A stretch of DNA of 64,000 nucleotides from Crambe crambe (Eukaryota; Porifera; Demospongiae; Poecilosclerida; Crambeidae). Positions 21,166 to 52,401 of the stretch are shown piece by piece; positions within the stretch are counted from its first letter, which is position 1, and every line of letters begins with the position of its first letter. Made by a program: the position numbers and the translations under genes. The stretch covers positions 3,348,001 through 3,412,000 of the forward strand of contig OZ004592.1 of assembly GCA_963924555.1 (NCBI GenBank). The letters are read 5' to 3'. The notes under the pieces were generated by a model that was not told the origin of the DNA, ran no database searches, and was given only the letters and a program-made list of their open reading frames with translations.

Positions 21166-21169
21166 ACCC

Positions 21170-21987: not shown

Positions 21988-24900
21988 ATGCCTAGGAAGT
22001 TTCGTTTAAAGTGTCCCTCGTAAGAATGAATTCAGAAAAGCACATGCACAATGTTGTACAACTCATCTCACCCAAACCTGAGAATGTTTGTATGTCGTCT
22101 ACTTCCAGAGAGTCTGATGAAGAATTGATATAGTTTCAATCCCAATAGATGAAGTACATGATAGTGGGATATCAACCATTGCTGAGTTGCAGAGGCGAAT
22201 CAATATTTTGTCAATTTTACATGATGGTAAGCTGATGGCTTCTTATGAAAGTATATAGTGGCTAGCTAACTTGTATACATAGTTGGTATTCTTCATTAAT
22301 AAAAATAGGGTGGATTAATGTTTATGCTGCCTCTGACATGAGTCCTAGAGATGCTATTGTACTTACCAAGGTAGAAACAATGGATTGTGTTGCACAGGTA
22401 TAGCTATAGCTCAAATATTGTTACAATGTCATTAACTAATTTTTTATGAAACAAAGATTCGCTACAGTATTGATGGTGATTTCAAATGGACTCTACAGAT
22501 TGGAGGAGATAAGATACCATCTGATTGTCTAGCTACATTGCCACAAGTTCTCAGTTCAGTCTCCCATGTGAGAAAAGTAATTGAGGGGCTGGAATGCTTC
22601 CAGTTTTGTACAGGGAACAATGACAACAAGTACTTTCCTATTCAGGCTGCAAGAAAAGGGGTATTTATGGATTCCACAGGTAAATTTAAAATTTAGATGC
22701 AGCAGTTCAATTCCATACCATGCAGATTCAAAGGTAGTGGCAACTTTTGTCAAAGACCATTTTCCCTACCACACCATTCGAACTTCATCTTGTCGGCTCC
22801 TAGTACCCAAACCCACTTTGCGATGTGACCACTGTAGTACTCACAGAAAAAATTCGAACTCTATGTTGCATCGGCACCTGAAAAGTAGTGAGACTGATTC
22901 TAGCCATCCAGAAAGCCACACCAACTACAGGTTTCTGGGCACACCTGAAAAACATGAGCGGTTACAGCGCTTACGGCAGAAAGCTAGGGTGTTAAGAGTT
23001 GCATTGCAAAAGAATGAAAGAGAGATTGGAAAGAGCAATAGAAGAGAGGGGTACTCAAGTGGATGCTGATCTACATGGCAATCTTTCCAACATCATGATC
23101 GAAAATTCACCGAGACATATCCACCTGATTCCTTTGCCCACATATTCTGGGAACAGCACCACAAGGCTTCTTTACTGAAAGACTCTCGTTCTATGAAGTG
23201 GGAGCCTATGATGATTAGATGGTGCCTCTACCTTCGTTATTTATCATCAAGTGCATATGAGACGCTACGTTCATCCGGTGTGTTGAAACTACCTTCATAA
23301 CGTACTTTGAGGGACTACACGCATTATACCCAAGCAAGCTGTAGATTTTCAAGCGAAGTCGATAAGCAGATAATGGATATAGCTTCAATCCAGACATGTC
23401 CAGAAAGGGAAAAGTATGTTGTCATCTTAATGGATGAGATGCACATCAGAGAGAACATAGTATATAGGTATAAGAACTATTTATAGCTAAGCATGTATGT
23501 ATGTAGTAACAAGTTATCATTTACCAGGCGTACTGATTGGTTTCACTGAGCTTGGTGACATCAACACTCACCTGGAGGCATTTGAGCATAAAATTGAGGA
23601 AGACCATTCTGATGAAGTACTCGCTGATTCAATGCTAGTTCTTAAGGTCAGGGGGTTGTTTAGCCAGCTGAAATTCCCATATGCTCAGTTCCCTTGCACT
23701 ACACTCAGTGGACATCAAATGTTTGAAGTTTTTGGGATGCTGTATGCCAACTAGAGCGTTGTGGATTTAAAGTTGTTTTTTTTTTCCTCTCTAATAAATT
23801 TCATGCAAGCAATGAGGTGGACCAACTAGCTATAATAAGCTATTATTAAGGGCCCCCTTAAAGGGAGCAGATGTAGGAATGAGAGTGGAGGTAAGAAGAG
23901 AGACAAGAAGGACGAAAAGAAAAGAAAGAAAGAAAGAAAAAAGTACAAAAGAAAACAAAAGACACAAGACTAATGAGACTAAAGTCTTAGCAGTAACATG
24001 TGATGGCCTCTCTGCAAATCGTAGATTGTTCCATTCACACAATCCAAGAGAAAAATTGACATACAGGACTATAAACCCATATGCCAGCGATGGTCGGTTG
24101 ATTTTCTTTTTTTCAGATCCCCCTCACCTAATGAAGACCACCAGAAATGCTTGGTTCAATAAGTGTCGTAAAATTTGGGTTAGTTGCCCCAGATAATGCC
24201 TTAAAATTAATGACCATTGTTATTCCTCAATAATAGTGTAATGGAAAACCTATTTCGTGGTCTCATCTTATTACCTTATATGAGAGGTGTCAACCCATGT
24301 TACCGAAATTGAAGTTTGAACATATCAGCCTTACCAGTTATTCAAAAATGTGTGTGGACTTAGCAGCTCAAGTACGTAACTAAGACCATAATATCAGATA
24401 GGGGAAGATTGGTTTAAATTGATTATAGGTACTCAGCAGCTCTGTTTCTAAAGCTCTAACACATACTTTGGACGAGCCAGCAAGGAACACAGCAAAATTT
24501 GCACTGATGTTTGACAAAAATTTTGATACACTAAATGTCAGTAGCATTTCAGCAGGGCAGTTGAAAAGAAATCCTTTCAAAACCCCCTTCCGTTCAGCAT
24601 CAGATTTTAGATTGAAGGTAACAACTGCATGATTGTAGTAGCTATTTCATTTTAACTTATAATGATTAAACAGTGGCTGCAAGATGAATTTCTTCCCTAT
24701 TTGGATGGTTGGGAAGCGAGTGTTCATGAGAGAGCTGAATTCTCAAAGAAGGAGATGCTGCTCAGTCATAAGACCAGAACTGGTCTTAAGCTTACTGGTA
24801 AGGTAGAATAACCATTACAGCTAATACTTTACGTTTATGTATTATTATTACAGTTCGTTCATTTGTGGATTTGGTAGAACATCTCTTCACCATTCCAGGT

Positions 24901-25150
24901 GTTAAGTTATTCTTGAGTAACAGATTGTGCCAAGATCCTGTCGAGGGCTTCTTTGGACAGCAAAGACAAAGGGGAAGAGTGAATGAAAACCCCTCAGTTC
25001 AATAATTTGTTGAGAACACACGAGCGCTGCGTGTAATAAAAGGTGTGTGTGGGCAAGTCCGAGGAAATTGTAGAGGAGCAATCTCTAAGAGAAAAGGACC
25101 TGAAGTGGATAATACCCTTCTACCGAAACATAAAATTAAACATAAGTAAT
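21988..25150 (+). pseudogene. P-element/THAP9-like transposase, most complete copy (gene 2)
   Basis: Cut-and-paste transposase of the P superfamily (RNase-H-fold DDE type). Exons seen: 21988 MPRKFRLKCPS; about 22138-22226; 22311-22399; about 22465-22680; 22724 onward. Family landmarks follow in order: CRLLVPKPTLRCDHC, TNYRFLGTPEKHERL, WCLYLRYLSSSAYETLR (23222), RTLRDYTHY (23305), LMDEMHIRENIVY (first catalytic Asp region, about 23429), GVLIGFTELGDIN, DGLSANRRLF (24002), DPPHLMKTTRN (second Asp, 24117), WLQDEFLPYLDGWE (24675), DPVEGFFGQQRQRG (24936) and NENPSVQ (24985) before an in-frame stop. Several frameshifts (near 22130, 23045, 23290) and a polypurine insert at 23765-23980 disable it. No THAP zinc finger is evident at the N-terminus. 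Confidence 0.85.
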
Positions 25151-25200
25151 GATGGTGATAATGATGATTGATAAGTATAACAGAGTCCAGAAAAAATTAG

Positions 25201-26000
25201 CTATTGTTTGCTTTCGCTTTCAGATTCATAAAATTTTCTTCTTGTAGCCTTGGATTTCTGTAATGTTTGTTTCTTCGACTGCTTATAAAGCTCCATGCAT
25301 GAGTTGGCAAATGCAAAGCCACGAATTGTTACATATAGTTCAAAAATCATGTCAAGAAGCATAACTGATAAATTGTCATCTAGTTCAGATGAAAGGACAA
25401 ACCAAAGACTTCGTACATCTTCGTTTATCTTTAAACTCTTAATAATATCTCTCTTCACTCCATCGTGTCTTGCAGATGATAATGTTAAATGATGCCTAAT
25501 CTCCTCCTCAATGTAACAATAAATAAAAGACTTCATCGGTTACATGCCACAGACCACCACGATCCAGTGCCTTCATCCAATCTTCAGATGCATGTTCAGA
25601 CTCCAATCCTTTTCCTCCAAGCTCCATCAAAGTCAATATCATATCTGTCTTGTGATGTATGCTTGATGATTCTAGTTTATCTAGCGACTTGCGACACACA
25701 TATCCAGCAACATAATGCAAAGCACTCTCATCATCATATGTAAGTTGACAGCCACAACTTGTATGGGATATTAATTTATGCTTGACAACATCTTTGAAAA
25801 ATTCATGGCTAATAAATTGGTAGAATGTTGGAGCTCAACAGATTTCCTGAGAAAATCCTTCCATTGTACATCCGATGTGCGAAGAAGATGAAATTTACCC
25901 CACATCTTGTCCTTTCTGGATCTTAGGGTCGGAGAAGCAATCTTTGAACTGCAAGGTGATGTACTTACAGAAATTTCTAACACTGCAAGATTTTCATGTT
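25201..26000 (-). pseudogene. Companion protein of the P-like transposon (gene 1), YxxGYxxR family
   Basis: Convergent to gene 2, its stop lies about 50 bases from gene 2's end. Reading leftwards: KDKMWGKFHLLR (about 25920-25880), HEFFKDVVKHKLIS, ALHYVAGYVCRKSL (25722-25680), SEDWMKALDRGGLWH (25585-25540), CYIEEEIRHHLTL (25520), then LLDMIFELYVTIRGFAFAN (25375-25315) and a basic tail ending ESESESKQ at 25201. Two frameshifts (near 25800 and 25525). The same motifs occur in the elements at 40.6 and 48.9 kb, always starting next to a terminal repeat. I do not recognise this protein; all-alpha and basic C-terminus suggest a nucleic-acid or transposase partner, which is inference. Confidence 0.72.
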
Positions 26001-26334
26001 TCTTGCATCATTGAGAAACTGCTGTGGCTGTTTTTAATGCCTCAGCTGCATCAGTGGAGGGCACTTGGAATCCACTATCTGTAAGTATTGTATCTAAAGC
26101 CTTCATAAAGAAATCTAAACAATATAAAAACCAAGGTAAGTACATTGCCAGCCTCTTTTAGTAGATGCCTGACCTATTCCATTTTTGAAACGTGATTATA
26201 GCTGGTTCTAGCCATTCAACTTCACTGTAGAACTCAGAATTCTTGCAGTATATTAATGTTGCTATGCAAATCAACGTGCACGCGCCTTGTAACTATAACG
26301 AGGATGTTTTTTAAATTTTACCCGCGAAACTGTC

Positions 26335-26370
26335 GTTTCCAATCCCGTGCCGTGAGTTCTTATATCCATG
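26335..26370 (-). mobile_element. Right terminal inverted repeat of the P-like element
   Basis: GTTTCCAATCCCGTGCCGTG ... TATATCCATG matches the family end (CATAGATA...CGGGATTGGAAAC on the other strand). It marks the gene-1 end of the 22-26.4 kb copy. The matching left end was not found; it may have been lost where the inverted duplicate and LINE lie. Confidence 0.7.
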
Positions 26371-26389
26371 GATTAATAGGCAATCACAT

Positions 26390-26580
26390 GCTTTTTTCGT
26401 GCAATTTGGGTATAATTGCATTCGGAACTGTCTAAAATTGCACTCGGCTATGCAATTACCTAGCCAGTTCCTCATGCAATTATACCCAAATTACACTCAA
26501 AAGCATATATTTACCTATACAAGTTCCTCGTGCAATTATATCCAAATTACACTCAAAAGCATGTAACTACCTATACTAAT
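26390..26580. repeat. Fifty-three-base tandem repeat with an inverted unit
   Basis: Two consecutive units of AGTTCCTCATGCAATTATAC, then CCAAATTACACTCAAAAGCA and a TACCTATAC end (26466-26575), preceded by a partly inverted unit (TGCAATTTGGGTATAATTGC) at 26400. Confidence 0.7.
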
Positions 26581-28035
26581 TCTGCTAATTTAGAATACCA
26601 GGAAGAAAGTACAAAAATTTCATAGCAACAACTCTGGCGAGGTTTTCTCCAACTTAGTTAAATACACATTATTTAAAGTGTTATATATATGAGGTATTGG
26701 CAGAATATGAATTCAGAACACTAGAAGTCATTTCTTTCCATTGCAATGTAGTAAAATGTCTGCCAGATTATCTCTGATAGTAAATAAGGAACATAACTAA
26801 ACTGTGCAGAAATATGTAGCATACAGGCTAGTGTACAATTAAATATAGTAGAATTACTATAGGAGTGACTCATTATGGAGTAGAAAATTACAGTTTCCTG
26901 TTACCATTAGCATAGATACAGGTAAACGGGACCACAGAAAAAAGAAAGCTTTAAGATCACTTGTAGATAGAAGGAAGTACAATGTACGTTGTTCAAATCA
27001 ATAAAAAGATGCTCCTGACACATCTCTTCTCCCAGTGTTTCCACCTGCCAGTTCAGATTTCCCATCAATTTCACTCACTAGCCAAATCAATACCTTCTAA
27101 TGTTCCAACTTCTCCACCACTTGTTTAGCACCTCCAGCAAATCTCCTTCCTTCATCACCCAGACTCTCTTCACTCTTACTACTAGCTATCACTGCTAGTA
27201 TACTACCAAAGGTGCTACAGTTGTAGTATTAGAGGATAGCGAAATGTACAAAGTTGCTTGTAAAGAAGATGGCTATATGTTGCCAAATATATAGGTTGAA
27301 ATACACAGATGGTTACCACAGGCTTTTCTACAAATGTATATCTATTCTTTGATTGTACTGCACTGGGAGGATGTTGATTAACCTTCAGGGTATGTATGCA
27401 CTTGATATTATAATCATTGTGTTATAACTTGCCCTTGTGAATAAAATGGATCAAACTGAGCAGGAGAAGTTGAACTCTGCACTCGTGAACTCCCTAATAA
27501 TCAAAAAAAAAAAGGCACAATTTAACATGCTGCACAAAAGATTATAAACACAAGTTTAGGATGTCTAAACTCTAAAAACCTGAGTATCCTGTCCCAAACA
27601 CAGCAAAGGACTACTAGGAAGACCCAAGCTTAATACTAGTCCTGGACATTGCTACTAATACAAAAAACATGTAGTTTAAGAAAGGATGCAAATAAAGCTA
27701 CACACACACACACATACTATCTACTGCACTAATGTGTAATCTTGTAACAAACTCCAGAATGCAAGTAGATAATTCAAGTCCACATCTATATAGGTAGATA
27801 ATCATGAGATTCTATGTTTTGTGTCCATGTTCTTGATAGAATAAGTATTGTTACCTCTTAGCAAGATGGAAAAAGCATGAAAGAGAATGCATATATAGGC
27901 TAGTGTACCTCTTATGCAATCAGGATGGTCTACAATATAGACAAACAACAGCACTCATTTTGGACTCTATGTATCATAGCAACTATCCATAATTCCTGGT
28001 CTTATTATGTATCTTATGACAGTGGAGATTAATAC
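26581..28035. other. No gene recognised
   Basis: AT-rich sequence with an (AC)n run near 27702-27713. A minus-strand Ser/Glu-rich stretch at 27180-27100 (SKSEESLGDEGRRFAGG) is open but lacks family resemblance. Confidence 0.4.
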
Positions 28036-28143
28036 CTGTAGAAAAAATTTCTGATCCACAATGTGAAATGGAGCGTTCCAATTCATGTGTATTGTGTACT
28101 TCCTTAGCTTTACTGAAACTCAATTGCCGCCTTGCTGGTGATC
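28036..28143 (-). CDS. Candidate host exon (possibly 5' NUP35)
   Basis: A 108-base open stretch with a good acceptor (TTATTTAG before GATCACC) and donor (ACAG before GTATTA) encodes SPARRQLSFSKAKEV followed by a polar tail ending EIFSTG. It lies on the NUP35 strand upstream of the first certain exon. Its exit phase (1) does not match the entry phase of the 13039 exon (needs 2), so at least one more exon would be required. NUP35 has a similar short Ser/Arg stretch before its RRM, but the match is weak. It could belong to another gene. Confidence 0.35.
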
Positions 28144-28786
28144 CTAAATAAATAATCTTAAAATGATGCCTGTACACTAAGGTGTGATGTACCTAACTAT
28201 AGCTATAATCTACTAAATAAAGAAGCTATGTGTATGTAATTGCAATGACTAGCTACTTGCTCATGAGTACACAGCAAAAAATCAACTGTAATAGGTATTA
28301 ACAGAACAAAAAATGTTATTAAAGTACTAAACTAATTTTTTGATCTGTAGACCATGTACAGACCAAAAAACAACAAAAAAATTTTAAAAAAAAATAAAAA
28401 AAACCAAACAAAAAAATAGGTAGGTGGGGCAGACCAGACCTGTTATAGGCTGCAGATTTTTTGCTGTGTAGGCTACTTGTAGTGAGCTTCAATTAACTCT
28501 CATTACTATCACCCATTTGTCAATTTTTCTGACATAAAAACTAATTCTTGAGAGGTTATTCTAGCTATATGGCTGTGAGGACCTGTGTGCAATGTGTTTC
28601 ACACAGTTGTGCTACAGGATATATGATACACCAGTTAAGCTTGCCTCTATCAGTATATTAATTTTAAATAGGCACCTTAGCTATAATAATAATAATAATA
28701 ATCCCTGCTTATTATTCTCAGCTAACATGATAAAAATTCAATAGAATTAGTTCTCATAAAATTAGCTTATGAAACAAACCACCAAC

Positions 28787-28817
28787 GTTTCGACCAGAAT
28801 ACTCTAGCCTTCATCAG
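28787..28817 (-). ncRNA. Hammerhead-like core in Penelope 3' end
   Basis: Minus-strand copy of the motif described at 29278-29308, in the left arm of the palindrome. Confidence 0.42.
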
Positions 28818-29277
28818 GGTGATACAAAAAATGCACACAGAAACGTCCTTATATAGCTACGCTCGTTATCTAGACAACGCACATGCAAACGCCTATGGAT
28901 ATTATATTATAGTATGCCAATACCTGAAGTCATAAACACTATTTCCCTAAGGCTTTAAGCGTAGAAACCCAGCAACCTTGAAGTTCTAGACCTACATCCC
29001 TATTAAAACGCTGCTCTTCTGAAGTTAAACCAATATGAAGCGCTTCTTTTAGAAGCAGCTCCTTCCTAGTCCTAGCTTGATCTACAACTGAAGCTTCCTT
29101 CCATAATATAACTTCAAGGTTGCTGGGTTTCTACGCTTAAAGCCTTAGGGAAATAGTGTTTATGACTTCAGGTATTGGCATACTATAATATAATATCCAT
29201 AGGCGTTTGCATGTGCGTTGTCTAGATAACAAGCGTAGCTATATAAGGACGTTTCTGTGTGCATTTTTTGTATCACC

Positions 29278-29308
29278 CTGATGAAGGCTAGAGTATTCTG
29301 GTCGAAAC
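29278..29308 (+). ncRNA. Hammerhead-like core in Penelope 3' end
   Basis: CTGATGA, one A, a 7-bp stem with two G-U pairs (GGCTAGA/TTCTGGTC), then GAAAC. CTGATGA and GAAAC are exact hammerhead core sequences; the extra A between the core and stem II departs from the canonical form. Stems I and III are not clearly definable, so self-cleavage is uncertain. Confidence 0.42.
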
Positions 29309-29355
29309 GTTGGTGGTTTGTTTCATAAGCTAATTTTATGAGAACTAATTCTATT

Positions 29356-31745
29356 GAATAATAATAATAATAATAACAACAACAACAACAACATACCAAG
29401 TAGAAAAATTAATAAAGTAAATAAATAATGTAATGTTTCTGCTCTTATATGCACTCTAGAGCTTCATTCTTACCATCTCAGTACTTAGTACTGTCATAAA
29501 AGAGCTGGAAATTACATGCCATCTTCTCTTTTTCAGCCATTATACGCTGGTAGTTTAGTAAGGCCAGCAGAACGGAACACCACTTTTCCCCTAGCTACAT
29601 AATTAGACGTCACGTACTAATGTGTTATACCAGCGACCCTTTCCCAATTCACACCTGCCACGCCAGGAGATAGTTCTAGAGAGTACGATAGTACTCTCTA
29701 AGTAGGGATGACACGGATTGCCCCATTACACCAATATAAAGCATTATGCAGGAATATGCTTCTCTTCTATCAACGACTCCTGTCTTGAAGACACAACACT
29801 TTAAATGTGCTAGGACTCAAGTATGAAGAGCATAAGATAAAGCAATGTCATTCTACAGCGATTTCTAATAATTGCCGTTTTCATCTGGTTGTTCATCATC
29901 ATCATCATCATAATCATAAAATAACTTATTTCAGAAATGGTTCATTCACCAAATATAATTTTTATACCAATTTACTCAGAAATGACTGTTAATTTGACAT
30001 GTTCAAAATAAGTTGTCACTTTCCAACCTGCTAGCTTTCAATCAACAACGCAGCAGACATTTTTACCCCGCCCCATGCATGTGATTCTTGCCTTGCACCT
30101 GACTGGCACCGGTCTGGTTATGAATCAAGCCTTGATGTAACTCTGATCAAGTATATAAGGTATAACACCAGTAAAAAGGCCTTTAAAATGACAATCAACT
30201 GTATAATATGAGCTACATCAGCATCTATCATTCCTTTTGGCTGAAATCTCTGATAAACTGCATAGCTAAAATACATGTCTGGGATGGATAGGAAGATCAT
30301 AGGTAATAAGTATCTCTGAGACTATAATTATCATAGATACTCATTATTGCTATCTCTATTACCTTTCATGGCTGACTAGCTAACTTTAGTGCTATATTCG
30401 ACATGTCTATAAAAAGGAGAAGAGATGGCTGTGTGCAGTTCAAAAAGTTCAGCAACAAGGGAGTGAAGTTCAATCAAGTAACCCCTTACCCATTACCAAA
30501 CTTTGAGCTAACTATTCACTCCCATGATAGGCCAAGATGGCATAAAGGGAGTGAAGTAGGAATAGTTAGCTCGTAGTTTGGCAATATAAGGTGTTACTTG
30601 AATAATGTTCACTCCCTTGTTGCTGAACTTTTTTGAACTGCACACAGCCATCCCTACTACTACTTTTTATTTAGAATAAATATTTTTTCCTTTATTTGTT
30701 CATCATCTTTTTTGATGTTCATGCACGGAGAATCGAACAGCAGAGTCATGTGGAATGACTTTCCAGCTTGTACTAAGCTATTATCTATGCTACCTTCAGT
30801 ACCTTGTTGCCCGTATTGTTGCTCTTCCCTAGGCTTTAGTTGTATTTCTTCATAATATGAACTAGCAGCTAGCTATCTGGATAGATGAAAACCCCACCCC
30901 TTGAACAGCTTATTCATGTGATGACCATTGCCAAATATTCTAGCTTTGAATAGAAGTAATTTAATTTACTACTACATGCACTTCAGAGCTTCACTCTTCC
31001 CATTTTAGTACTGACTACTGTCATACTAGAGCATGCAATCTTCTTTTTCTCAGCCGTTGCCGGGCAAACATTGATAGTTTAGTGAGGACAGAGGAATGGA
31101 ATGCCGTTTTCCACCTAGCTACATAATTAGATGTCACATACTAATGTATATATCAGCAACTCTTACCCATGCATGAGTTGCTGCAGAGATATAGAACTTA
31201 GAAAGGCTTTAAATAGAGCTAGGCAGCAGTGCATGTAGGATCAAACAACAGAGTCACGTGGAAAATCACAAAAAAATAATAATAAAGATAGGCCTTACAT
31301 ATGCTTGCAAATATAAACCAACTAAGCCATCTATGTTAATGTTGCTCTTCCTTTGGTATTTTCATAGCATGAATTTGCTTGGAGTTTCATTCTCGACATC
31401 TTAGCATTTACGACTGTTATGAAAGAGCCAAAGATTATATGCCATTTTCTATTCTTAACAATTGCTTGAAAGTCCGAACAGTTCAGTTGTGCTGCTGTTA
31501 CGCCATTTTCATTTCTCTATGATCAGTATACATAATTTGGCAGCAACGGTGACAACCATTACCAAATACTTGGAACCCCGCTAATTATAGCTTCGTACCC
31601 AGGGTCGAAAATTATCCATTGTTGATAAACAATAATAATATATAATAAATTCCATCTTCACTATAAATCCTGTAGCAACATGCAAAAAATAATAATAATT
31701 CTATAACGTACATACATGGCCAGTGCTGAGACTTGTTCTAATCAT
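29356..31745. other. Repeat-rich non-coding sequence
   Basis: Starts with (AAT)n/(AAC)n, then an ACATACCAAGTAG end (29391) followed by sequence similar to 30940-31130 (GCTTCATTCTTACCATCTCA, GCTACATAATTAGA). A solo AGTAGGGATG end is at 29699-29710. Contains the palindromic MITE at 30407-30690. No host exon recognised. Confidence 0.5.
30407..30690. mobile_element. Palindromic MITE, AGTAGGGATG family
   Basis: Arms GATGGCTGTGTGCAGTTCAA and TTGAACTGCACACAGCCATC bracket the same nested palindrome as the 4501 copy (GAGCTAACTATT / AATAGTTAGCTC). Right flank ATTTAGAATAAATATTTTTT is also shared. Confidence 0.75.
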
Positions 31746-31746
31746 T

Positions 31747-35500: not shown

Positions 35501-35504
35501 AGTG

Positions 35505-36545: not shown

Positions 36546-36550
36546 TTTAT

Positions 36551-37725: not shown

Positions 37726-37789
37726 TGTATAATATATAATGAGAAGTCGAGCTAAAATTACAATTGGCCAGAAATTTAGTTCTGAAGAG

Positions 37790-38095: not shown

Positions 38096-38099
38096 TAGT

Positions 38100-40560: not shown

Positions 40561-40568
40561 TCGGCTAT

Positions 40569-42294
40569 GTGAGACCATAGATACTATAAACTACGTGTAC
40601 GGGATTGGAAACGGCACATTAATCCGTTGAATCCGTGTCCGAGGGCGTGGCCTTGCTTAACTCTTTATCCGCGAGCAACGTAACGCGGGAGATTGCCGCT
40701 GCATCGAGCTAAGCTAGCTACTGATCTCTGTGATCCTCTGAGTTACCTATGGCCACTTGCATTCCAGTTAAAGGTTAGCTGACAACTTATTATTGTATAA
40801 AAAAGGGAGAGAGAAAAATGAAAAATAGGTAGCTAGGTGATATTTAAGTTAGCTAGAGGCTACTTCATATCTGCAGATAGTTGTCTGGAAGCTATAAAAG
40901 CTGCTTGCCATAATATGAGCATGGATGCAGATTATGATACCTCCGTGGATAATTGTAAGATTTTAATTGACATGGCTACTAAGTTATATGAGCTATACCA
41001 GCAACCCAATTCCATTATTACTGAGTTCAGTAAATGGCTTCTAGATTCTATCTCAAAAATCATTACAAAAGGTATAGAAAATTTTCAAGTATTAAGGAAA
41101 AATTATGGATTGAGTTTCACTCACTCCGGAGTTCATCTTCATTTATTGAGAAGTGGGTGAAATTCCTCACTGATTGTGGCATAACCATTGAGGCCCTATT
41201 TTATCAGCAACTTACTCTGAATTTATTCATCTCACTGATAGAAAAAGCATTACCTGTGACAGTTGATGATATGTACACACCAATATAAAGGAGCTAATAT
41301 ACAAAGGACAGTGTGCAATTAGGTATATTGGAGGCTACATAGTCAGATCCATTCACAAAGACTGCACAGTCAAAGAAATTTTACTTGGACTTGACTTACA
41401 ACAGTGACGATAACATGGAACCATCTGAATCGGAGGAATGGATGTGTGGTGTGCCATCGATAGGGGAGGTTTAATCCACAGCTTTTATTATACCCTATGT
41501 GCCATAGAATATAGTACACGGTGCCATTTTAATATAACAGGAATAGATACTCTCCCATGCACATTAACAAGATGTTCTGAATGATTATCTCTGCCTCTTT
41601 TACATCTCTGCAGATTCGACCCAATCATCACTAGCACTGTGAGACTGTTGCTGTCTTTTAGCATTGGAATACATACATTTCTTTGACTCATAGCTATAAT
41701 TCAATTTTAATAATAGTCATTTTCAAAAAAGTGTAACAAATTAACTGTTTTCTCTAGCATCAAAAGCTTATTACAGGTACATATGGTAAGCATTGCTCTA
41801 CCACTTTCAGTAGAGTGGTAGGCATTTTAGCTAATAGTAATGTAGAAGTGTTACTACAGTTGAACTGGTTTTTTTCATCCAAATTGTTCACTCTGCTGAA
41901 TGTAATAGTATTACATGACTTAAAATATGGTTAAGTACATGTAAGAAACTATTCTCCAACTAATTTTCATTGTCATTACTGTTCACTGTGAGTTCTAGGC
42001 AAGTTAATGTTACTAACATGCAAAAAAGTAGCCATTTTCACGGTAACTAGAGTTTATGAACTATTTCTGCAACTCTTTCATGTAAAAGCTTTGCTAGTTA
42101 CCTTGCTAATCCACCGCAGGAACTATTTCTCCTTTGGAGATGAACTTGGGATGCGTACAACACGCGAAATTCGCCAAAACAGGAAACTAACTTGTCTAGG
42201 ATACCTCGGACAAGGATGAATTACATTGCCATATACGGATGCGGGGGCGGGTTTCCAATCCCGTACACGTAGTTTATAGTATCTATGGTGAGAC
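40569..42294 (+). mobile_element. P-like transposon, 1,712-bp copy with 7-bp target duplication
   Basis: Element 40576-42287. Left end CATAGATACTATAAACTACG, then TGTACGGGATTGGAAAC is matched exactly by the inverted right end (GTTTCCAATCCCGTACACGT to CTATG). GTGAGAC flanks both sides (40569-40575 and 42288-42294), a perfect 7-bp target duplication. Only the companion gene (gene 1) is present; gene 2 is deleted, so it is non-autonomous. Confidence 0.9.
40750..41620 (+). pseudogene. Companion protein (gene 1) copy in the 40.6-kb element
   Basis: Begins 170 bases inside the left terminal repeat: MATCIPVK at 40750, a likely intron (donor AAAG/GTTAGC about 40773, acceptor CTGCAG about 40877), then CLEAIKAACHNMSMDADYD and LIDMATKLYELYQQPNS. 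After another probable intron or frameshift: SIKEKLWIEFHSLRSSSSF (41080-41140), FLTDCGITIEALFYQQL, then AIRYIGGYIVRSIHKDC (41310-41360) and, past a frameshift, AIDRGGLIHSFYYTL (41455-41500). KxKxWxxFHxLR, YxxGYxxR and DRGGLxH align with 25201-26000. Frameshifts and stops show decay. Confidence 0.7.
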
Positions 42295-42618
42295 TAGGTA
42301 GGGACTTAACAATAGTCTGCAATACGGTATGGTGCTCATGTGATGTGCCCACCAGTAAGGAAATTTTACTCACTTGTCGGTTAAAGTTTGTTGACTCTGA
42401 GAGCATTTTTGAAAGGGTACCTATAAACAAATTTGATATGTTTCGTAATCAATTAACGTGCAATATCACTTACGTGAGTTTTTACGCCAGGAGAACCAAG
42501 CAGAAAGGGAGGTAAGTACCCAGGACCTGTATCCATATTATGCTACTTAGGAAAATCGAATGGGCAGGGGTCGTCACGCCTAAAAGTCGTTGGCCACGCC
42601 CATAAAGCTGCGGTATAC

Positions 42619-42720
42619 CATAGCTAGATATGAGGTTTTACGGGATTGGAAACGCCCAATGAACTGCACAACCGTGGCGCGTTGACAGATGCGCACGCGC
42701 ATGCAGCATTAATTATATCA
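42619..42720 (+). mobile_element. Left end of a P-like MITE, cut from its body
   Basis: CATAGCTAGATATGAGGTTT, then TACGGGATTGGAAACGCCCA ATGAACTG, nearly identical to 47589-47680. It runs to ATTAATTATAT and then joins a low-complexity stretch and the RLE-type LINE end. Confidence 0.8.
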
Positions 42721-42755
42721 TAAATTAATATGATATAATTTATGATAATAATGAT

Positions 42756-43538
42756 ATGATAATTTATGATCAGGATACCCGAGACCGGGTTCGGGCACTC
42801 GCTTTATCAACTGCCATCCCTCATGCCGGTGATTGGTTGAATGTTATCCCAGCTCCTGCACTTGGTCTCCATCTTCATGACAGGGAGTTTCGCTGTTGTT
42901 TGGACTACTGGCTTGGTCTTGAAGTTTTCGGCAGAAACTCAAGATGCCCAGCATGTTCCAAAGAGGGCATTATGGATCCCTTCGGGGACCACCAAGTGGG
43001 TTGTGGAGGAAATGGAGACAGGATATACCGCCATAATGCCCTACGTGATGTCCTCTTTTCTGCTGCTCAGTCTGCCGCTCTCGCACCAAGGAAGGAGGTC
43101 ACTTCCCTCATCCCAGACACTAACAGCCGCCCAGCTGATATCTTCCTCCCAAACTGGTCCAGGGGCCTCCCAGCTGCCCTGGATGTGACAGTTATCTCCA
43201 CTCTGCAAACTTCCACTCTGTCTGGTGCTGCCAAGGATCAAGGCTATGCCTTAAGGGTTGGTGAGGGGAGAAAGATAGCAGCACACCAAGAAGCATGCCA
43301 GGCGGTGGGGATGTCATTTGTCCCCCTTGTGGTGGAGTCGCTGGGAGGCTGGAGTGAGGAGGCTGCCCTTACCATTTCAAGAATTGGCCGCCTCCTGGGG
43401 CAGAGAACTGGTTCATCACCAGGAGAAACTACTCGTCATCTTTTCCAGAGACTATCTGTGGCCCTCTGGAGGGGTAATGCCACCCTTTGGCTTAACCGCC
43501 TTCCAACTCACTCTCCCTGGGTGGATGGTATCATCTAA
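42756..43538 (+). pseudogene. RLE-type LINE, C-terminal endonuclease domain
   Basis: Uninterrupted 260-codon frame. It holds the end of the linker (AGDWLNVIPAPALGLHL), a zinc knuckle CPACS...GDHQVGCGG (Cys-Cys-His-Cys, 42955-43015) and the restriction-like endonuclease RPADIFLP...ALDVTVIS (43130-43200, catalytic-type PD...D layout with A after P). It is homologous to 19773-19369 but from a different subfamily (about 30% alike by eye). No reverse transcriptase remains: a 5'-truncated insertion. The Met shown is incidental. The 3' end is a short (AAAAAT)n tail at 43608-43630, as in RLE elements with microsatellite tails. Confidence 0.82.
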
Positions 43539-43633
43539 CTGTCTTTTCATCCAATATTTATTACTGTTGCTAGCTAGTCTAGCCTTTGTGATAAAATTAA
43601 TTGATATGTAAAAATAAAAATAAAAATAATTAT

Positions 43634-44862
43634 CATAAAGAGGTTTACGGCCGGGCCGCGGGATTGGAAACGGATCACGTGCTCTCGTTAGGCGCGTTGT
43701 TGACAGCTGAATGACATAGCACTTTTGTCAAAGTTGCTGTTCTGACAAGATCCGTGAGGTAAGACTTATGCCAATGATACTATAATACACTAGGTCATAG
43801 ATTTACTGTATGAAATAAATTTTAGCTCAGATTTTCAAGTTTATTCCTACAAATACTACTGTAGTGGTTAATGGGACTGTAATCCCTCTCACGCTTGATG
43901 GAATCAATTGCTGTTGCCCATTTTCTGATCAAAAGGCATGTAAACTTTAGCTACATGGAATAGTAATGTTAGTTTTTGTATTAGCTGACATATATTGTCT
44001 CTAGCATTTGTAAGGCCAGACCTAATAGATTTTCTGTTGCTCGGGCCCACCCGGGTCTATTTTTGGTCAAGCTGAAATAAAAATTTCTATCATGACTTAG
44101 CCACTATCGGCTCAATTTGGCTGTAAAATAATTAAAAATCAGTAATTTTTTAGCTTTGTAAGCTCAATTTTATTGATCTTCTGATATGAGAAAAAAATTT
44201 TTTCGGCCACCCGGGTCACTTTTTTGCACTCAGCAGCCCGAGCAACAGAAAATCAATTAGGTCTGGCCTAAGTGGTGTTAAAACTGTAATCCCTCTCCCA
44301 AGAAATAGATTAACAATATTGCAACTGTATTAGTTATTTCAGGGAAAGGATAGAACAGTAAATGGAATTGGTGCATTCGTTTTCTATACAATAGTCATCC
44401 TATGGAGATGGCAAGCTTACTATATTTCCCCCCTAATATCCATAGGGTCCACAGGACAGCTGACTGAGCCGAATTCTTAAGGTGGATGGTGTCAAAACCC
44501 AACAGCCAAAAGCTGGAAGTATTGCAATAATGCTGATGAGGGAGAACTGAGCAGAAACTGGCGGATAACTTTGGGGCAAAATTATCTAGCTATAATAATA
44601 ATGAATTTATGTCTAATTTTAATACCAAAAGTCATTCTGACCTTTCTTTCAAATCAATCACATAAAATTAATGTATAATGAACAATGATAGGTACTCATA
44701 GTTATAATTACAAGGGAAAAAGTTATGAATAATTAATAACTTCCTTCCTCAGACTCTCCAACTTCAACTCTCTCACTCTTCTTACTATTCTGTGAGCTGT
44801 AGGGGCAAAATATCACTTTAACTGCCTTGAAAGGAGTGAATATTGATCTCTTTTCACAACGA
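43634..44862 (-). mobile_element. P-like MITE body, inverted relative to its left end
   Basis: From 43634 (CATAAAGAGGTTTACGG, an 8-base insert, then CGGGATTGGAAACGGATCAC) the sequence is the reverse complement of 48695-47700, ending at GAATATTGATCTCTTTTCAC. A Harbinger-like MITE (44014-44268) interrupts it. With 42619-42720 it makes one element whose body has been inverted. Confidence 0.8.
44014..44268. mobile_element. Harbinger-like MITE, 255 bp, TAA target duplication
   Basis: Terminal repeats GGCCAGACCTAATAGATTTT and AAAATCAATTAGGTCTGGCC, about 33 bp with one mismatch, extending through GTTGCTCGGGC. TAA lies on both sides (44011-44013, 44269-44271). The uninserted state is visible in the related copy at 48312 (minus strand: TTTGCAAGTGGTG). 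The 3-bp TWA-like duplication and GGCC start fit PIF/Harbinger. Confidence 0.85.
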
Positions 44863-47290
44863 TTAATACTAGAGATGCTCGTATAGCATTAGTTGGGCGA
44901 GCAAGCAGCCAGTGGTCATTTCAATGTGCTCCTCCCTCACTTATGATTATATAGCCCCAACAGTGACTTTCGATATCTAGCTATTCAGGTTGTTAACTGA
45001 CTTGGTGCATTCCCAGTTAGCATTAGAGTGTCTTCTCTGAACCCAGGCTACCACTCCTGTTCAGACTCAGTAGCTAGTCTCTCAAATAATGAGCCCTCAT
45101 ATGCTCTAATCTGGCAGCTCTGTGTTCTGCTGACTCTGCTCTCCTTCTGGCTCTCATTTGCTCTGCTCTTGCAGCATTACTCTGTACATTCCCTCCTCCT
45201 GGCTCTATCTGTCGCATTTCTTTGCTAGTCTTGTTTTTCTCTGTTCCTTTGACTCTGTTCTCCTTCTAGCTCTGTCTCTTTCATTTCTTTCATGAGGTCT
45301 CGCTCTTCTTTGCTGGTCAGTTTCTAGAGGGTGTTCTGGGGCCCTCCTTCGCTTGTTTTCTGGTTCTCTGGTTTCCATAATACTCGCTACAATATAGTGT
45401 TTTAACTTCAAGCTTAACGAAAACGATTGCTTATTATGACGTTGCTTAGTAGCTATTTCATGCGCATGCGTAAGCGCATGCGCATTTTGAGTGACGTACG
45501 AATAACTACATCACCTTCATATTTGAATAAATGTTTTGTTTTAAGTAGAGCCCGGGGAGCGAGGCTAGTCATAGATATACTAGATCATTGTAGGACGAGC
45601 CTGAGCTGAAAGTGATGCATGTTGGTTTAGCAAGGAGAATTTTTGAATTAATAATTAAAGACAGGAAGGAAGTACTTATTGCTGACAAGTAGATGTAGAT
45701 TGATAGTTACTCATTCTCTGCAGCTGTTTCTGAAAATTATTATTTTTTTCTGAAGACTCTCAGGATGTAGAGCTTGGGGACTCTTTCCTCATTTTTCTCT
45801 GAATGGTTTGAATTTTCTCAGGATTTTGAGCCATGGCACTTGTGCAACCATACCCGATTCTTTCCCCAGCCCCAAAGAGAAAGGAAAGAATCGTGTTAGT
45901 TCGAGACAGACGTGTTGTAGTCCGACCCTTTTCTTGGGCCTGCGACCCCCAAGAAAGGAAGGTGTTTTAACTCCTTGTAATTATTCAGATGACGTTTAAG
46001 GTAAAGGGTCGCTACGCCAGACTGGACGTATTGCGGAAGAAGTAGGTCTAGTGAGACCATAGGGCATATCGATCCGCGAAGAGGCGAAAGGGCATGCAAC
46101 TGCCAATGCTCTATATGTTAGTAAAAATAGCCTAGCACGCGGTAGGCTCTGCCCGCATATGTCCGTTTACTGCAGTAAACTATAGCTAAATATATTATAG
46201 TATCAATTTACATTTCGCCGTCTATTCTCATTATCTCTAATTGACTCCGTGAGACCGTCTCCAGCGCCAGTGACTCTGTATTCGGCATAGAAACCCGTAA
46301 TTTACTATTGTATCCATGCGTGTAGTTCGTGATAGCGCGTTACAGCATAGATATGGTTACAGTGATTGTATTGCCACAATAGTTAAAATCCGGAAATGTT
46401 TTAAATCAATTATGGTTATCCCTACATATAGAGCGCTATCACGCTCTCTGAGAGAGCATGGTATCAATTGTATACGCATAGTTCAGTATGTTTGAATTGC
46501 TTTATCTCTTAGTATCAGTCATTTTCTGAGTTTTTTCTTTCTGTTCAGCGGTCTCAGAAGCACTGCCGTTTCCTCTAAACTTGGCTTTAAATTGATCCAT
46601 TGTATAGTAACTAGTAGTGAACATTCAAGAATTTCATTATCAAACATACACAGACCTGAATTCGATACTCGCTTCAGAATAAGAGTATTGGACGAAGCCA
46701 GGTAACGAGGCGGTTGCCACCGTTCTTCGTATAGACAATTTCGCCTGTCCAATTCTAGGGCACACGAACGAAATGAGCAACCTTCGTACGGATTATATCG
46801 ACAAAGTCATAAATCCTTAATTCACTCGGAGTAATTTTGCACAACTATGAGCCTGCTCTATGAATAATATTTATCGCTCGCGATTGCGCTTTAAATATTT
46901 ATTTATTTTTTTATATGAAAATTTTGCAAAAAGCATGGAGACAAAATAGCATAGCAAGCTAGCTAACCTATACAGTGAAATAACAAGAAAAATACACACA
47001 CACACAAAAAAGAAACTAAAAGAAATTATTCAGATGACGTTTAAAGGCTAATAATGATGAACTCGAGGTCACATCCAGAGGCAGGGCATTCCAAATAGTA
47101 GTGACATTGGGGTAGAAGGAAAATTCATAAAATGAATTTTTTGGTTATGAGCGAACATCTAGTTTAATACACTCGGCCTTGGTTCCTCTTAAAATTGTCA
47201 AGTTCGCATTAAAGCGTACGAGAATGGCTCGTGATTGCTATTTAAAATTTTTTTAAAGGGATACAAATTTTATATATCCCTGTACAGGGA
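44863..47290. other. No host gene recognised
   Basis: Contains an isolated P-like family end fragment (CATAGATATACTAGATCATT at 45572), half of the 37555 palindrome (45508-45535), and the Arg-rich fragment at 45205-45411. Other short frames lack family motifs. Confidence 0.45.
45205..45390 (-). pseudogene. Arg/Glu-rich repeat protein fragment
   Basis: METREPENKRRRAPEH starts a frame with units such as ETDQQRRARPHERNERDRAR and RTESKEQRKTRLAKK. This style of ExxEQRxxRL repeat resembles the fragment at 37790 and the N-terminal region of some large transposon-encoded proteins. Unassigned. Confidence 0.33.
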
Positions 47291-47310
47291 ATCCGGAACA
47301 AAGTAGGATG

Positions 47311-48779
47311 GCAAATGGCATGCCATCTCCAACGCTGCACAAAATTAAAACTACTTGAGTACATATGGTCAACTAGTATCTTTCATTTTATACCAAAAGT
47401 AAGGCAGCTAGACTTCTATTTTAGTAGTAGGAGTGCCACAAAACTTTTCAGTCACCTATTTCCACGTTTTTCTTCCATAGCAACAGTAAATAGACTAAAC
47501 TGACATGATAAACTACTACAGCTCTAGGTCATTGAGCCTTTTCATTTATAATCATAATTATTGCTGCGCTAAATACCTTGCCTTTCACCATAGATATGAG
47601 GTTTTACGGGATTGGAAACGCCCAATGAACTGCACAACCGAGGCGCGTTGACAGATGCGCACGCGCATGCAGCATTAATTATATTAATGGCCGTGAAAGG
47701 AGATCAATATTCACTCCTTTCAAGGCAGTTAAAGTGATGTTCTGCCCCTACAGCTCACAGAATAGTACAAGTAAGCTAAGGAGAAGGTATTGAAGAAGTG
47801 AAGAGTCAGAGAGTTGAAGTTGGAGAGTCTGAGGAAGGAAGTTATTAATTATTCATAACTTTTTTCCTTGTAATTATAACTATGAGTACCTATCATTGCT
47901 CATTATACATTAATTTTATGTGATTGATTTGAAAGAAAGGCCAGAATGACTTTTGGTATTAAAATTAGACATAAATTCATCATTATTATAGCTAGATAAT
48001 TTTGCCCCAAAGTTATCCGCCAGTTTCTGCTCAGTTCTCCCTCATCAGCATTATTGCAATACTTCCAGCTTTTGGCTGTTGGATTTTGACACCATCCACC
48101 TCAAGAATTCGGCTCAGTCAGCTGTCCTGTGGACCCTATGGATATTAGGGGGGAAATATAGTAAGCTTGCCATCTCCATAGGATGACTATTGTATAGAAA
48201 ACGAATGCACCAATTCCATTTACTGTTCTATCCTTTCCCTGAAATAACTAATACAGTTGCAATATTGTTAATCTATTTCTTGGGAGAGGGATTACAGTTT
48301 TAACACCACTTGCAAATGCTAGAGACAATATATGTCAGCTAATACAAAAACCAACATTACTATTCCATGTAGCTAAAGTTTACATGCCTTTTGATCAGAA
48401 AATGGGCAACAGCAATTGATTCTATCAAGCGTGAGAGGGATTATAGTCCCATTAACCACTACAGTAGTATTTGTAGGATTAAATTTGAAAATCTGAGCTA
48501 AAATTTATTTCATACAGTTAATCTATGCCCTAGTGTATTATAGTATCATTGGCATAAGTCTTACCTCATGGATCTTGTCAGAACAGCAACTTTGACAAAA
48601 GTGCTATGTCATTCAGCTGTCAACGCGCCTCGGTTGTTAGTTGCTAACGAGAGCACGTGATCCGTTTCCAATCCCGTAAACCTCTTATATCTATGCTTTC
48701 ACCCTCTTTCTTATTTTGTGTAAGATTTCTCTGTTCGCCAGGTACCTACACGGATGGTCTATAAATTCTACGCGCGCAT
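47311..48779 (+). repeat. Left arm of a long inverted repeat (interrupted)
   Basis: GGCAAATGGCATGCCATCTC (47311) to CTTTCAC (47588), resuming at 48696 (CTTTCACCCTCTTTCTTATT) and ending near GGATGGTCTATAAATTCTAC GCGCGCAT (48779). It is the reverse complement of 50930-51283; the 47589-48695 transposon splits it. Confidence 0.88.
47582..48702 (+). mobile_element. P-like MITE, 1,107 bp, with 7-bp duplication CTTTCAC
   Basis: Element 47589-48695: CATAGATATGAGGTTTTACG, then GGATTGGAAACG; right end GTTTCCAATCCCGTAAACCT to ATATCTATG. CTTTCAC occurs at 47582-47588 and 48696-48702. The paralogous site at 51005-51011 (minus strand) has a single CTTTCAC and no insert. On the minus strand about 48490-48385 an open stretch (FIPTNTTVVVNGTVIPL) may be a relic exon. 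Otherwise non-coding. Confidence 0.92.
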
Positions 48780-49011
48780 CACTGGCACTTTCTTTGAAAG
48801 AACGGAAACCTGGCGATTGTTCCAAGACGTATTTTTCCCTTCCCCTCCTCGCAAAAAAATACGTAGGGCGCGCGAAATCATAGATACTATAACCTCCGGA
48901 CACGGGATTGGAAACGGGTGGTTCGCGCGAGATTTTAGAATACAATCCGCGTTGTTTGCTGAGTCAGCAAAGACGTTGCCAAACAGTAGTGAAGGCAAGT
49001 ATTTCGCAAAT

Positions 49012-49740
49012 AATGGCTGAAGCTATAGGAGAAACGTCTTCAACTACAAGTAAGCATAGTAAGTTAAAGATTGTAACCTTAAATCCTGCTATGTAATTCA
49101 CTTTTTAGGCCCCTCTCAGTGAGTCTGAGATATTAATTCAGGCAGTAAAAGAAGGTAGCTAATGGGTTTAAAATTCCTTCATCAGATGCTTCTGCATCTC
49201 TGCTATGGATTAAAGCAAAACTTGAAAGCTGACATTCATTCCTGCAGTCCAGACACCATGCATATAACTCTCTTGCAGCTAGCAAACTTGAAACAGCTCT
49301 GACTATTTAAAGTCAGCTGTAAACAAAGGTGGGAATTTATAATTATAGCATTTGTTCATCGGATGAATTCATCTTAATGTGGAAGAAAATGTGATGAATT
49401 TCCCATCTTCCAGAATATCATCTGATTTTTTTTTTAGGTGAACATATGATGGGGGATCTACTGTTACAGCAGCATGTCCTTTCTCTTATCAAGAGCCACT
49501 TTGAGGTATGCTGCTGGATACATATATAGAACTGTGAAGGACAGAGTCCATGGTATACTATTGTAGGAGCAATTAAGAAATGTCATGTAGAAAAAAGATG
49601 AAATCATGGGAGAAGTAATGAATTGGTCTATATAATAGGATGAATGTCGAAATTGGGAAGGAGTTGCTGAAAATGATCATTGAAGGGTGGATCAAGATGA
49701 GGGAGTTCTCATTTGGTGATGCGTGGTTGAAACTTTAAGC
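49012..49740 (+). pseudogene. Companion protein (gene 1) remnants in the 48.9-kb element
   Basis: MAEAIGETSSTTSKHS opens 130 bases inside the left end. Further pieces: APLSESEILIQAVKE (49108-49155, flanked by TTTTTAG and GTAGCT splice-like sites), SSDASASLLWIKAKLES (49182-49230) and ELLKMIIEGWIKMREFSFGD (49660-49720). The last aligns with the C-terminal LLDMIFELYVTIRGFAFAN of the 25.2-kb copy. The central YxxGY block is missing here, so the gene is deleted and broken. Confidence 0.55.
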
Positions 49741-49831
49741 AGAAGTCCCTCCAACATTCTAAAGGTCCTCATCACCGATAAATCAAGAATTCATGCAGCA
49801 TGCATATTTTTTCTGAATATATTATAATGAT

Positions 49832-50290
49832 TCATTCATGTTTGGAAATCATTCTCCGCTTTGCATTTTCTTTTTCTAAATCAGGCTTGGAACTGTGAGC
49901 CCTGCAATTGCCTCTAACTGGACCTCTGCAAAATGTATTAATCACCCATAGTGCTTGAGTGTTGTTGATAAATTCCTTGACACTAGGATTATCATGAGTT
50001 CCACCTCTTTGTCGCTGGCACCCACAAAACTTTTCAGTGGATCCTGGCAAAGGTGCTCACTCAAATTTTTTTTTCACTCCATCAATGGAAAACAGAATAT
50101 TCCATTAATGATAATAGAATATTAGCAAGCTAACAAGAAGCTCTAGCTAGCTAGCTACCTGTCATTTTCAAACCCAGCAAGGTCTCAGGGCTAAGGAGCA
50201 TTTTCTTTTTCTCAACTTTGGAAAACCCTTTCATTGCTTTTATACTCCATCCAAATAGACAAGAAACTCTTCCTTTAGCCACTATATATA
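49832..50290 (-). pseudogene. P-like transposase (gene 2) C-terminal remnants in the 48.9-kb element
   Basis: Reading leftwards: WLKEEFLVYLDGV (about 50270), KMLLSPETLLGLKMT (about 50190), then STEKFCGCQRQRGGTHDNPS (50040-49985), VKEFINNTQALWVI and GPVRGNCRA. These match WLQDEFLPYLDGWE, LLSHKTRTGLKLT and EGFFGQQRQRGRVNENPS of the 22-25 kb copy in order. The fixed spacing supports a shared gene structure. It converges on gene 1. Confidence 0.8.
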
Positions 50291-50876
50291 AAATAAAATG
50301 TAATAATAAAAATCATCACAGGTAGGAGTATAACCATGCATTTAGTTCAGAGTTGACCCAATTGGGTTTTTAAAGTTTATGGTTATAGCATATTTATGAT
50401 GTGTAACTTAAGGCTTACACTAAAAGTCAACTCCTCTAACTATGCACATGCAAAACTACTTTTATTTTGCTACAACATCAACTAGTTATTTTTCATAATA
50501 AACTTCTCCCAACTGGTAAATTGAGCACACAATTACAAACATTAATGGCTTCCTGAACTTACAAAACCCAGATTTTTTCCCAGTAATATTCAAGTCTTAG
50601 GGGAAAAAAAGCATTCTATAACAAACTTTATCTCTATGTATACCATTTGGTGGAAAAATTAATGCAAAATAGTTTAATTCAACACAGAAAACCTTTCACA
50701 CAGTTTTCTTCTCCAGGAATTGACCAACCACGGCAAAACTAGCCATATTAATGAACTAGGGTTTAAATTTTTGTTTTAAGTGTCAAAATGAGTAGTATAA
50801 AGTATTAGATAAATTATTTTCTTACTGGCTCGCTCTATTCATCCGCTTCAGAGCGCTGTCTTTATTCTCCTTTTAT

Positions 50877-52016
50877 GTGCAGTCATAGATATACTAGACT
50901 ACGTACACAGGATTGGAAACAGGGCATGCGCGCGTATAATTTATAAACCATCCGTGTAGGTACCTGGCGAACAGAGAAATCTTACACAAAATAAGAAAGA
51001 GGGTGAAAGGCAAGGTATTTAGCGCAGCAATAATTATGATTATAAGTGAAAAGGCTCAATGACCTATAGCTGTAGTAGTTTATCATGTCAGTTTAGTCTA
51101 TTTACTGTTGCTATGGAAGAAAAACATGGAAACAGGTGACTGAAAAGCTTTGTGGCACTCCTACTACTAAAATAGAAGTCTAGCTGCCTTACTTTTGGTA
51201 TAAAATGAAAGATACTAGTTGACCATATGTACTCAAGTAGTTTTAATTTTATGCAGGGCTGGAGATGGCATGCCATTTGCCATTGATGGTGTAAGAAGCC
51301 ATTTCACTATGTTGTTGTTCTTATGTGAGGAGATGAGATACTTTCTTGTATCAGGGGCAGGAAAGGATACACTGGGGCAGCTTTATTCTTCATCTTGATC
51401 CCCCAAAACAAGTATATCACAACAAATCGCTCGATGAATTGGATGCTCAGCAGTGCACTATCAATACTTGTTATTATCATTTTCTTATTATAACATGATA
51501 GGAAATATGTGTAAAGTGACAGTATTAGTTACTACACTATAGTATCCTTCTTTACTATAGCTTTTCTTGACAGCCAGCCATGGGTAATCTGAAGAAACAA
51601 TAACATTGACATGATTTTTTTACAGGCACCTTTAAAAAGTACATATGTACATATGAATGATCACTACCTAACAGATTGGTGGAAAAAAAGAGACTATACT
51701 TTTAATATCCAAGCTCCAGAGGTCCACAAAGTCGAACTACCATTGTTACTCGCAATTATACCCTCTATCACTTGAGAAACCAGCCTTTTTAAGAACTATG
51801 CTTGTTTAGCACTATACTAGCCCACTCTTTGCATTCTTTAAACTTACCAATTGGCTATAGTTTAGCAGAAATTTGGCACACTACTTCTCCTCCCCTGTTT
51901 GTTTGGGGCAATTTAGCACGAACAGCTGCCTACACGGATTGTCAGTATTGTCGTTATGGGCGCACGTGACCTGTTTCCAATCCTGTGTACGTAGTCTAGT
52001 ATATCTATGGTGCAGT
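50877..52016. mobile_element. P-like MITE, 1,126 bp, nested, with 7-bp duplication GTGCAGT
   Basis: Element 50884-52009: CATAGATATACTAGACTACG TACACAGGATTGGAAAC and its inverted right end. GTGCAGT flanks both ends (50877-50883, 52010-52016). It carries the right arm of the long inverted repeat. No coding region recognised. Confidence 0.9.
50930..51283 (-). repeat. Right arm of the long inverted repeat, with an unoccupied insertion site
   Basis: Reverse complement of 47311-47588 plus 48696-48779. At 51002-51014 the sequence GGGTGAAAGGCAAGG joins without the 1.1-kb insert, giving the pre-insertion state. It lies inside the 50884-52009 element, so the left arm is probably an older member of that element type lacking its end. 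Confidence 0.88.
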
Positions 52017-52401
52017 CAACAAAAATTACAACGCGGAGTGCACGCAAGCAATTCAATGGTTGTCATAGGCGCACGTGAGCCCGTTTCCAATCCCGTGTCC
52101 GGAGGTTATAGTATCTATGAAGACATCCACAAGTGCTGCGGGCGGGCGGTTATTATAATGATTCTATTATTGCTTCGTTGTTTGGTCCTGTCTTCATCAT
52201 TCTCCACGGGCTTTCCCAAAGAGCTGCATGTGAAGTCAAATGTGCGCGCTCTATTGCGTGCATGAGCAATGGCAGGCGCTAGGCAGTAATAATATTTTTT
52301 TGATGCGGTGACATTTTCGATACGTGGGCGGTGGACAGGAAACAATCATTCTATTAATAGCGGCCTAATACATAGTCCCGATGTCACAGTTTACCATCGC
52401 T

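Follow-up and report, generated by a model that had tools for sequence, protein, structure and literature searches.

A P-superfamily transposon group in the sponge Crambe crambe with a convergent second gene resembling the transposase C-terminal domain

The P element is among the best studied transposons, and its Drosophila transposase is a single chain; what, then, is the second gene that accompanies P-like transposase remnants in a 64,000-nucleotide stretch of the Crambe crambe genome (contig C15, positions 3348001-3412000, henceforth the window)? We examined the window together with the whole assembly (143 Mb, 119 contigs) and found the three window loci with this companion gene to be decayed members of a large P-superfamily group of cut-and-paste elements, about 4.9-5.0 kb in length. 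These elements probably represent a lineage with a split transposase, whose C-terminal domain (CTD) is supplied in trans by the convergent companion gene. From the structure and the linkage documented below we infer that the catalytic chain needs the companion. P-type catalysis is itself known; what would be new is P-superfamily catalysis with the enzyme divided over two convergent genes.

Two convergent genes in one mobile unit

Cluster counts from searches of the assembly with the two genes are lower bounds: the companion search gave 152 matches, of which 150 are listed (150 of 297 candidates scored), falling into 131 clusters, and the transposase search gave 129 matches (82 of 676 candidates scored), falling into 75 clusters. 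Among the matches listed, a companion lies within 6 kb of 64 of the 75 transposase clusters, whereas only about 1% of random points are equally near one, and all 64 pairs are convergent. These counts bear out the two-gene, convergent P-like lineage that an initial annotation of the window had proposed.

We opened six of the 11 transposase clusters that have no listed companion. A convergent companion is clear in two of them (E 1e-44 and 2e-28), present as a fragment in one (E 1e-5) and absent from three. Two of these last three are transposase fragments, and their matches fall short of the profile's end. The remaining one is a copy on contig C6 that has both ends and shares 99.4% identity with copy C10b; a deletion has taken out its transposase 3' end along with almost the whole companion. 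Judged by its sequence, it is a recent internal deletion derivative of a C10b-type copy. We rejected it as a counter-example of a transposase without a companion, the deletion spanning the 3' ends of both genes. Thus, a full-length member with the transposase alone, the outcome that the initial annotation had set against its own proposal, was not seen among the six opened clusters. The C6 copy itself (L052 and L055, C6:2863200-2870953) is about 3.4 kb long and non-autonomous, and has lost the 3' ends of both genes.

Seen from the other side, the 131 companion clusters comprise 64 with a listed convergent transposase, one in tandem with a transposase and 66 without a listed one. Some of these 66 reflect the scoring limit, because companion clusters without a listed transposase, for instance L014, L015, L022 and L027, carry a convergent transposase in their own DNA. 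A set of 30 companion loci, corresponding to 27 distinct places, gave 25 convergent arrangements, one without a transposase within 1.5 kb and one that is rearranged. Two loci on contig C16, L018 (C16:5515589) and L019 (C16:5583589), carry identical companions, lie 68 kb from each other and are oppositely oriented, which reflects either a duplication or a recent local transposition.

The anatomy of the element was established from ten whole copies taken from contiguous pieces, all selected through companion matches. Seven of the ten (length 4.89-5.02 kb) have both ends complete, with terminal inverted repeats (TIRs) of 24-38 bp that differ by at most one mismatch, and six of these seven are flanked by perfect 7-bp target-site duplications (TSDs) of varied sequence (CTGCCAG, GTTGAAT, TGATAAT, ATTATAG, GCTAAAC and ATTGTAT). 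In C10b and C8b the TIRs match in their inner part only, and no left end of C6a was found with the motif used. The transposase gene of C12a, modelled by hand, has eight exons separated by GT-AG introns of 47-85 bp and is open over 823 codons; C13a is 99.98% identical to it, with both genes open and a different target, and C10a is 99.1% identical, with one additional stop. Just 57 bp separate the stop codons of the transposase and the companion in C12a. Across the seven two-ended copies the companion frame begins 209-491 bp from the right end, a position given by the limit of the open frame, which a small upstream exon may precede. The companion lies inside the same TIRs and TSDs as the transposase.

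The two genes also vary together. Companion and transposase distances correlate over nine families (Mantel r 0.80, p 0.0018), with L022 left out as belonging to the same family as C12a and having an inflated transposase distance; the version with ten rows gives r 0.593. Between families of the companion (eight families, 28 pairs), the nonsynonymous differences (pN 0.43-0.53) stay below the synonymous ones (pS 0.69-0.87, near saturation), and we therefore take the companion to be under long-term purifying selection.

A gene of the host or of another transposon that merely lies near P-like copies could in principle produce such loci, and element 2 of the window, with its companion only, would fit this. 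The origin of the companion from such a source was the other outcome that the initial annotation had set against itself, and it was not seen. Convergence in every pair within 6 kb, common TIRs and TSDs, and recurrence in nine divergent families refute an accidental association, to which we give practically no credence; linkage, convergence and shared ends likewise led us to reject the companion as a host-gene remnant or chance neighbor.

A modelled catalytic chain without the C-terminal domain and a companion that resembles it

The transposase chain of C12a displays the RNase H fold in its N-terminal (PF21787, E 4.8e-22) and C-terminal (PF21789, E 4.7e-7) parts around the GTP-binding insertion (PF21788, E 3.3e-20); all three exceed their curated cut-offs, and only P-type Pfam families match the chain at E up to 1. 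No THAP domain (PF05485) was matched in this 823-residue chain, the only one scanned, even at E values as high as 1; the domain is precomputed on three of the 120 listed transposase homologues. The best solved structure for the chain is the Drosophila P transposase, DmTNP (6p5a_A, E 9.4e-13, residues 527-768), and the alignment pairs SDPPHL with SDTPHL and QDPLERFFG with QDIVEHFFG; the first aspartate (DEMH/DEMK) is aligned in a weak second stretch only. The motif DPLERFFG, with the catalytic glutamate, starts at residue 744, and in the C12a model the chain stops about 75 residues past that glutamate in a lysine- and arginine-rich tail, without a CTD. DmTNP, in contrast, continues into its CTD where this chain ends.

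We fetched the best 120 of 513 matches to the transposase. An alignment reaching beyond the catalytic motif was obtained for 109 of them (molluscs, echinoderms, hemichordates, amphioxus, sponges and some unnamed sources), and 104 of the 109 end within 130 residues of that motif. The set may be biased, as it was picked by similarity to a query lacking the CTD.

The companion, of about 340 residues, has an N-terminal helical region followed by a part that matches 6p5a_B and whose predicted fold marks it as homologous to the CTD of the P transposase. The sequence blocks that had first been noticed in it (YxxGYxxR, DRGGL and LLxMI...RGF) do belong together, all lying within this one conserved protein. 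A helical extension of about 110-160 N-terminal residues lies outside the part that matches 6p5a_B, and 6p5a_B is not among the 50 matches listed in a Foldseek search with a second companion model. Pfam scans of the companions returned no family above its cut-off, and no nuclease or Myb family; a PF22824 label precomputed on a few homologues was not reproduced in these scans, and we gave it no weight. The companion profile had no match among sequences of the Protein Data Bank, and the scan of viral contigs with the companion found none. A genome search with PF12017 was likewise without a match, as were its controls.

On the division that we favor, gene A would furnish the catalytic chain, made up of an N-terminal region, the RNase H fold split by the GTP-binding insertion and, where the CTD would otherwise follow, a short basic tail; gene B, read convergently from the other terminal repeat, would furnish the companion with the CTD homologue. 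The CTD of the companion would dock on chain A as a separate polypeptide and complete the transpososome, its N-terminal helices perhaps taking the place of the linker. In the available account of the P transposase, on the basis of one reported complex, the CTD is borne on a disordered linker and acts across subunits (PMC7776569); since it already acts through such a linker, it might be the part of the enzyme most easily supplied in trans. Because the same source describes a 66-kDa P product without the C-terminal third as a repressor (PMC7776569), chain A alone may be inactive or repressive, with the companion as the key.

Alternatively, a companion with the CTD fold might now serve another role—as a repressor, an adaptor for host factors or a target selector—next to a catalytic chain that works independently. 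The helical region beyond the 6p5a_B match would suit such a role. Against it stand the modelled catalytic chain, which ends without a CTD, and the companion's long-term constraint, its place beside most of the listed transposase clusters and, in gene models of Ephydatia, its fusion at the place of the CTD, and we regard this alternative as unlikely.

Fused forms and known two-gene transposons

Homologues beyond the Crambe genome include companion-type proteins of Ephydatia muelleri that stand alone (P0022 and P0026), and in seven predicted proteins, all of them gene models, the companion domain follows the transposase within a single chain. Two of these are from Ephydatia muelleri by name (P0033 and P0046), four carry Em gene numbers and are taken as Ephydatia muelleri (P0035, P0039, P0041 and P0045), and one is from Amphimedon queenslandica (P0058). 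The companion domain is nearly whole in P0033, P0035 and P0041, which stand in databases as hypothetical proteins and unite the same transposase and companion domain as the Crambe elements in a single predicted chain, the companion domain being C-terminal; in the other four the domain is partial. At the least, the two genes must lie in the same-strand order at these fusions, because a gene finder could not have merged convergent genes. With the predicted structure, these gene-model fusions strongly support the companion as a probable partner of the transposase.

In trees of both proteins, each rooted at the midpoint only, the six Ephydatia-type fusions group with the C16a/L019 family (99/99 in the companion tree, 100/99 in the transposase tree), P0018 joining this group in the companion tree, and P0058 stands apart on a long branch. 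The Ephydatia fused forms are thus placed among split ones in both trees. This placement, along with the homologues that end near the catalytic motif, supports a broader proposal that we make tentatively and hold to be possible rather than probable: a broad clade of animal P-like transposases without their own CTD might depend on two polypeptides, with the CTD supplied in trans by a convergent gene, the Ephydatia fusion being a later re-fusion. Outside sponges, where no search aimed at them was made, partner genes of this kind were not seen.

The sponge elements share with Drosophila P (DmTNP, PDB 6p5a) and vertebrate THAP9 the RNase H core, the GTP-binding insertion, the TIRs, the surroundings of the second aspartate and the glutamate (SDPPHL and QDPLExFFG) and, in the companion, the CTD fold; by this homology they belong to the P superfamily. 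They differ from the single DmTNP chain with its N-terminal THAP domain in that no THAP domain is matched in the modelled chain and the CTD fold sits in a separate convergent gene, outside the catalytic chain; their TSDs are of 7 bp, in contrast to the 8 bp of P and zebrafish Pdre2. Mostly 7-bp TSDs are also reported for Galileo, a P-superfamily element of Drosophila, which differs in having a THAP-bearing transposase and long TIRs, and for which the available part of the report mentions no second gene (PMC4168063).

Transposons with two genes are known outside the P superfamily. Harbinger encodes a Myb-like protein alongside its transposase, and mudrA and mudrB of maize MuDR are transcribed convergently. 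The comparison with Harbinger made in the initial annotation holds for the two-gene architecture but not for the companion, which resembles the P transposase's own CTD plus a helical extension; the transposase has P-type Pfam families only, and the companions have no Myb family, setting them apart from PIF/Harbinger. MuDR resembles the sponge elements in pairing a transposase with a second protein, but the function of MURB is described as unknown and mudrB as restricted to Zea (PMC3276141). Among animal transposons, KolobokP and Kolobok0 (KolX) also pair a transposase with a second protein; this is either KolX or a nuclease of the His-Me finger type, and the accessible part of the source does not describe it as part of the transposase. 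Their duplications are TTAA, unlike the varied 7-bp ones found here (PMC9587614).

Such systems raise the alternative that a P-like element captured an unrelated accessory gene, as in Harbinger or KolobokP. Foreign second genes do exist, that of KolobokP being a nuclease on the complementary strand according to the portion of the report available (PMC9587614), and the companions match no Pfam family above its cut-off. Yet the structure and the fusion both indicate a P CTD, and the scans show neither a nuclease nor a Myb family, leaving this capture highly improbable. The empty Pfam scans also led us to reject the companion as a foreign accessory protein of a known Pfam family.

Titles and opening lines of abstracts in the open-licence literature, a coverage with subscription papers mostly outside it, contain no two-gene P element or split P transposase; to our knowledge, Repbase Reports fall outside this coverage. 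A split that exists in nature, in copies that are open and moved recently, would make the role of the CTD directly testable as a separate protein, and it suggests a two-key control of transposition. It would also account for a group of animal proteins without a name, which would be pieces of transposons, and provides a candidate for a two-component P-type system of gene transfer outside insects.

Decayed copies in the window and their neighbors

All three loci that the initial annotation had singled out contain profile matches to the companion, and the reversed window has none to either the companion or the transposase profile (Table 1). The transposase converges on the companion in two loci, elements 1 and 3, and element 2 retains companion remnants only. 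The related ends also proved real, as perfect inverted arms in elements 2 and 3 and a preserved right TIR in element 1. Every gene copy in the window has decayed, with frame breaks and stops. TSDs of 7 bp flank three of the four two-ended window elements.

Table 1. Coordinates of the transposon features in the window
Feature	Positions	Strand	Basis
Element 1, left-truncated two-gene P-like element	21396-26370		blastn against full-length copy C8a
Element 1 transposase exons, decayed	22451-25146	+	transposase profile, best stretch E 5e-75
Insertion within element 1, ~0.2 kb, right part A-rich	23774-23980		alignment gap against C8a
Element 1 companion gene (putative detached CTD), broken frames	25204-26115	-	companion profile, three stretches, E 5.6e-36 to 2.8e-15
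Element 1 right TIR	26335-26370		first 37 bp of C8a = 26370-26334, 100%
Element 2, companion only, putative deletion derivative, perfect TIRs	40576-42287		inverted-repeat search; arms of 39 bp
Element 2 companion remnants	40888-41533	+	companion profile, 41064-41533 E 7e-14 and 1e-9; outer piece E 0.06
Non-autonomous element, related TIRs (CATAGATATGAGG...)	47589-48695		TSD CTTTCAC
Element 3, internally deleted C13c-type two-gene element	48879-52119		perfect inverted arms of 41 bp; blastn to C13c
Element 3 companion remnants	49492-49729	+	companion profile, 49640-49729 E 9e-6; 49492-49551 E 0.0098
Element 3 transposase 3' exons, RNase H C-terminal part	49853-50287	-	transposase profile, E 1.6e-18
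Nested non-autonomous element inside element 3, ~1.1 kb, like TIR	50884-52009		TSD GTGCAGT

Element 1 aligns to the C8 full-length copy in two blocks (C8a 35-2484 to 21396-23773 and 2480-4892 to 23981-26370; 93% identity), and this alignment moves its left start from 21,988, as initially annotated, to near 21,396 and shows that its left TIR is lost. Its transposase matches PF21787 (Pfam, joined piece, E 5.5e-11), with the genome-search matches spanning 23070-25146, and a stop-free copy of its companion, 93% identical, is found at C8:4762001-4762738. The segment 23916-24093, overlapping the insertion, recurs inverted at 21168-21345. To the left of the element, an inverted transposase exon piece (21155-21345; 98% identical to C8a across 113 bp) is a sign of local rearrangement at this end, and beside it a 402-residue open frame (19796-21004, minus strand) with a reverse-transcriptase domain (PF00078, E 1.2e-18) is probably a fragment resembling a long interspersed nuclear element.

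The TSD of element 2, GTGAGAC, is present on both flanks (40569-40575 and 42288-42294), and its intact ends around a decayed companion alone fit an internal deletion. The remaining parts of element 3 are 70-96% identical to C13c by blastn, and no target duplication was found at its ends. The two non-autonomous elements have long inverted pieces common to each other's surroundings.

A 260-residue open frame (42756-43538, plus strand), flanked by TIR-like motifs (42643 and 43661), has a cysteine/histidine cluster; a Pfam scan of it gave no match, and its PADIFLPNW...DVTVIS stretch presumably resembles an endonuclease. Finally, inverted arms of 512 and 316 bp, 97-99% complementary, within 43699-48624 suggest a foldback-like or recombined element.

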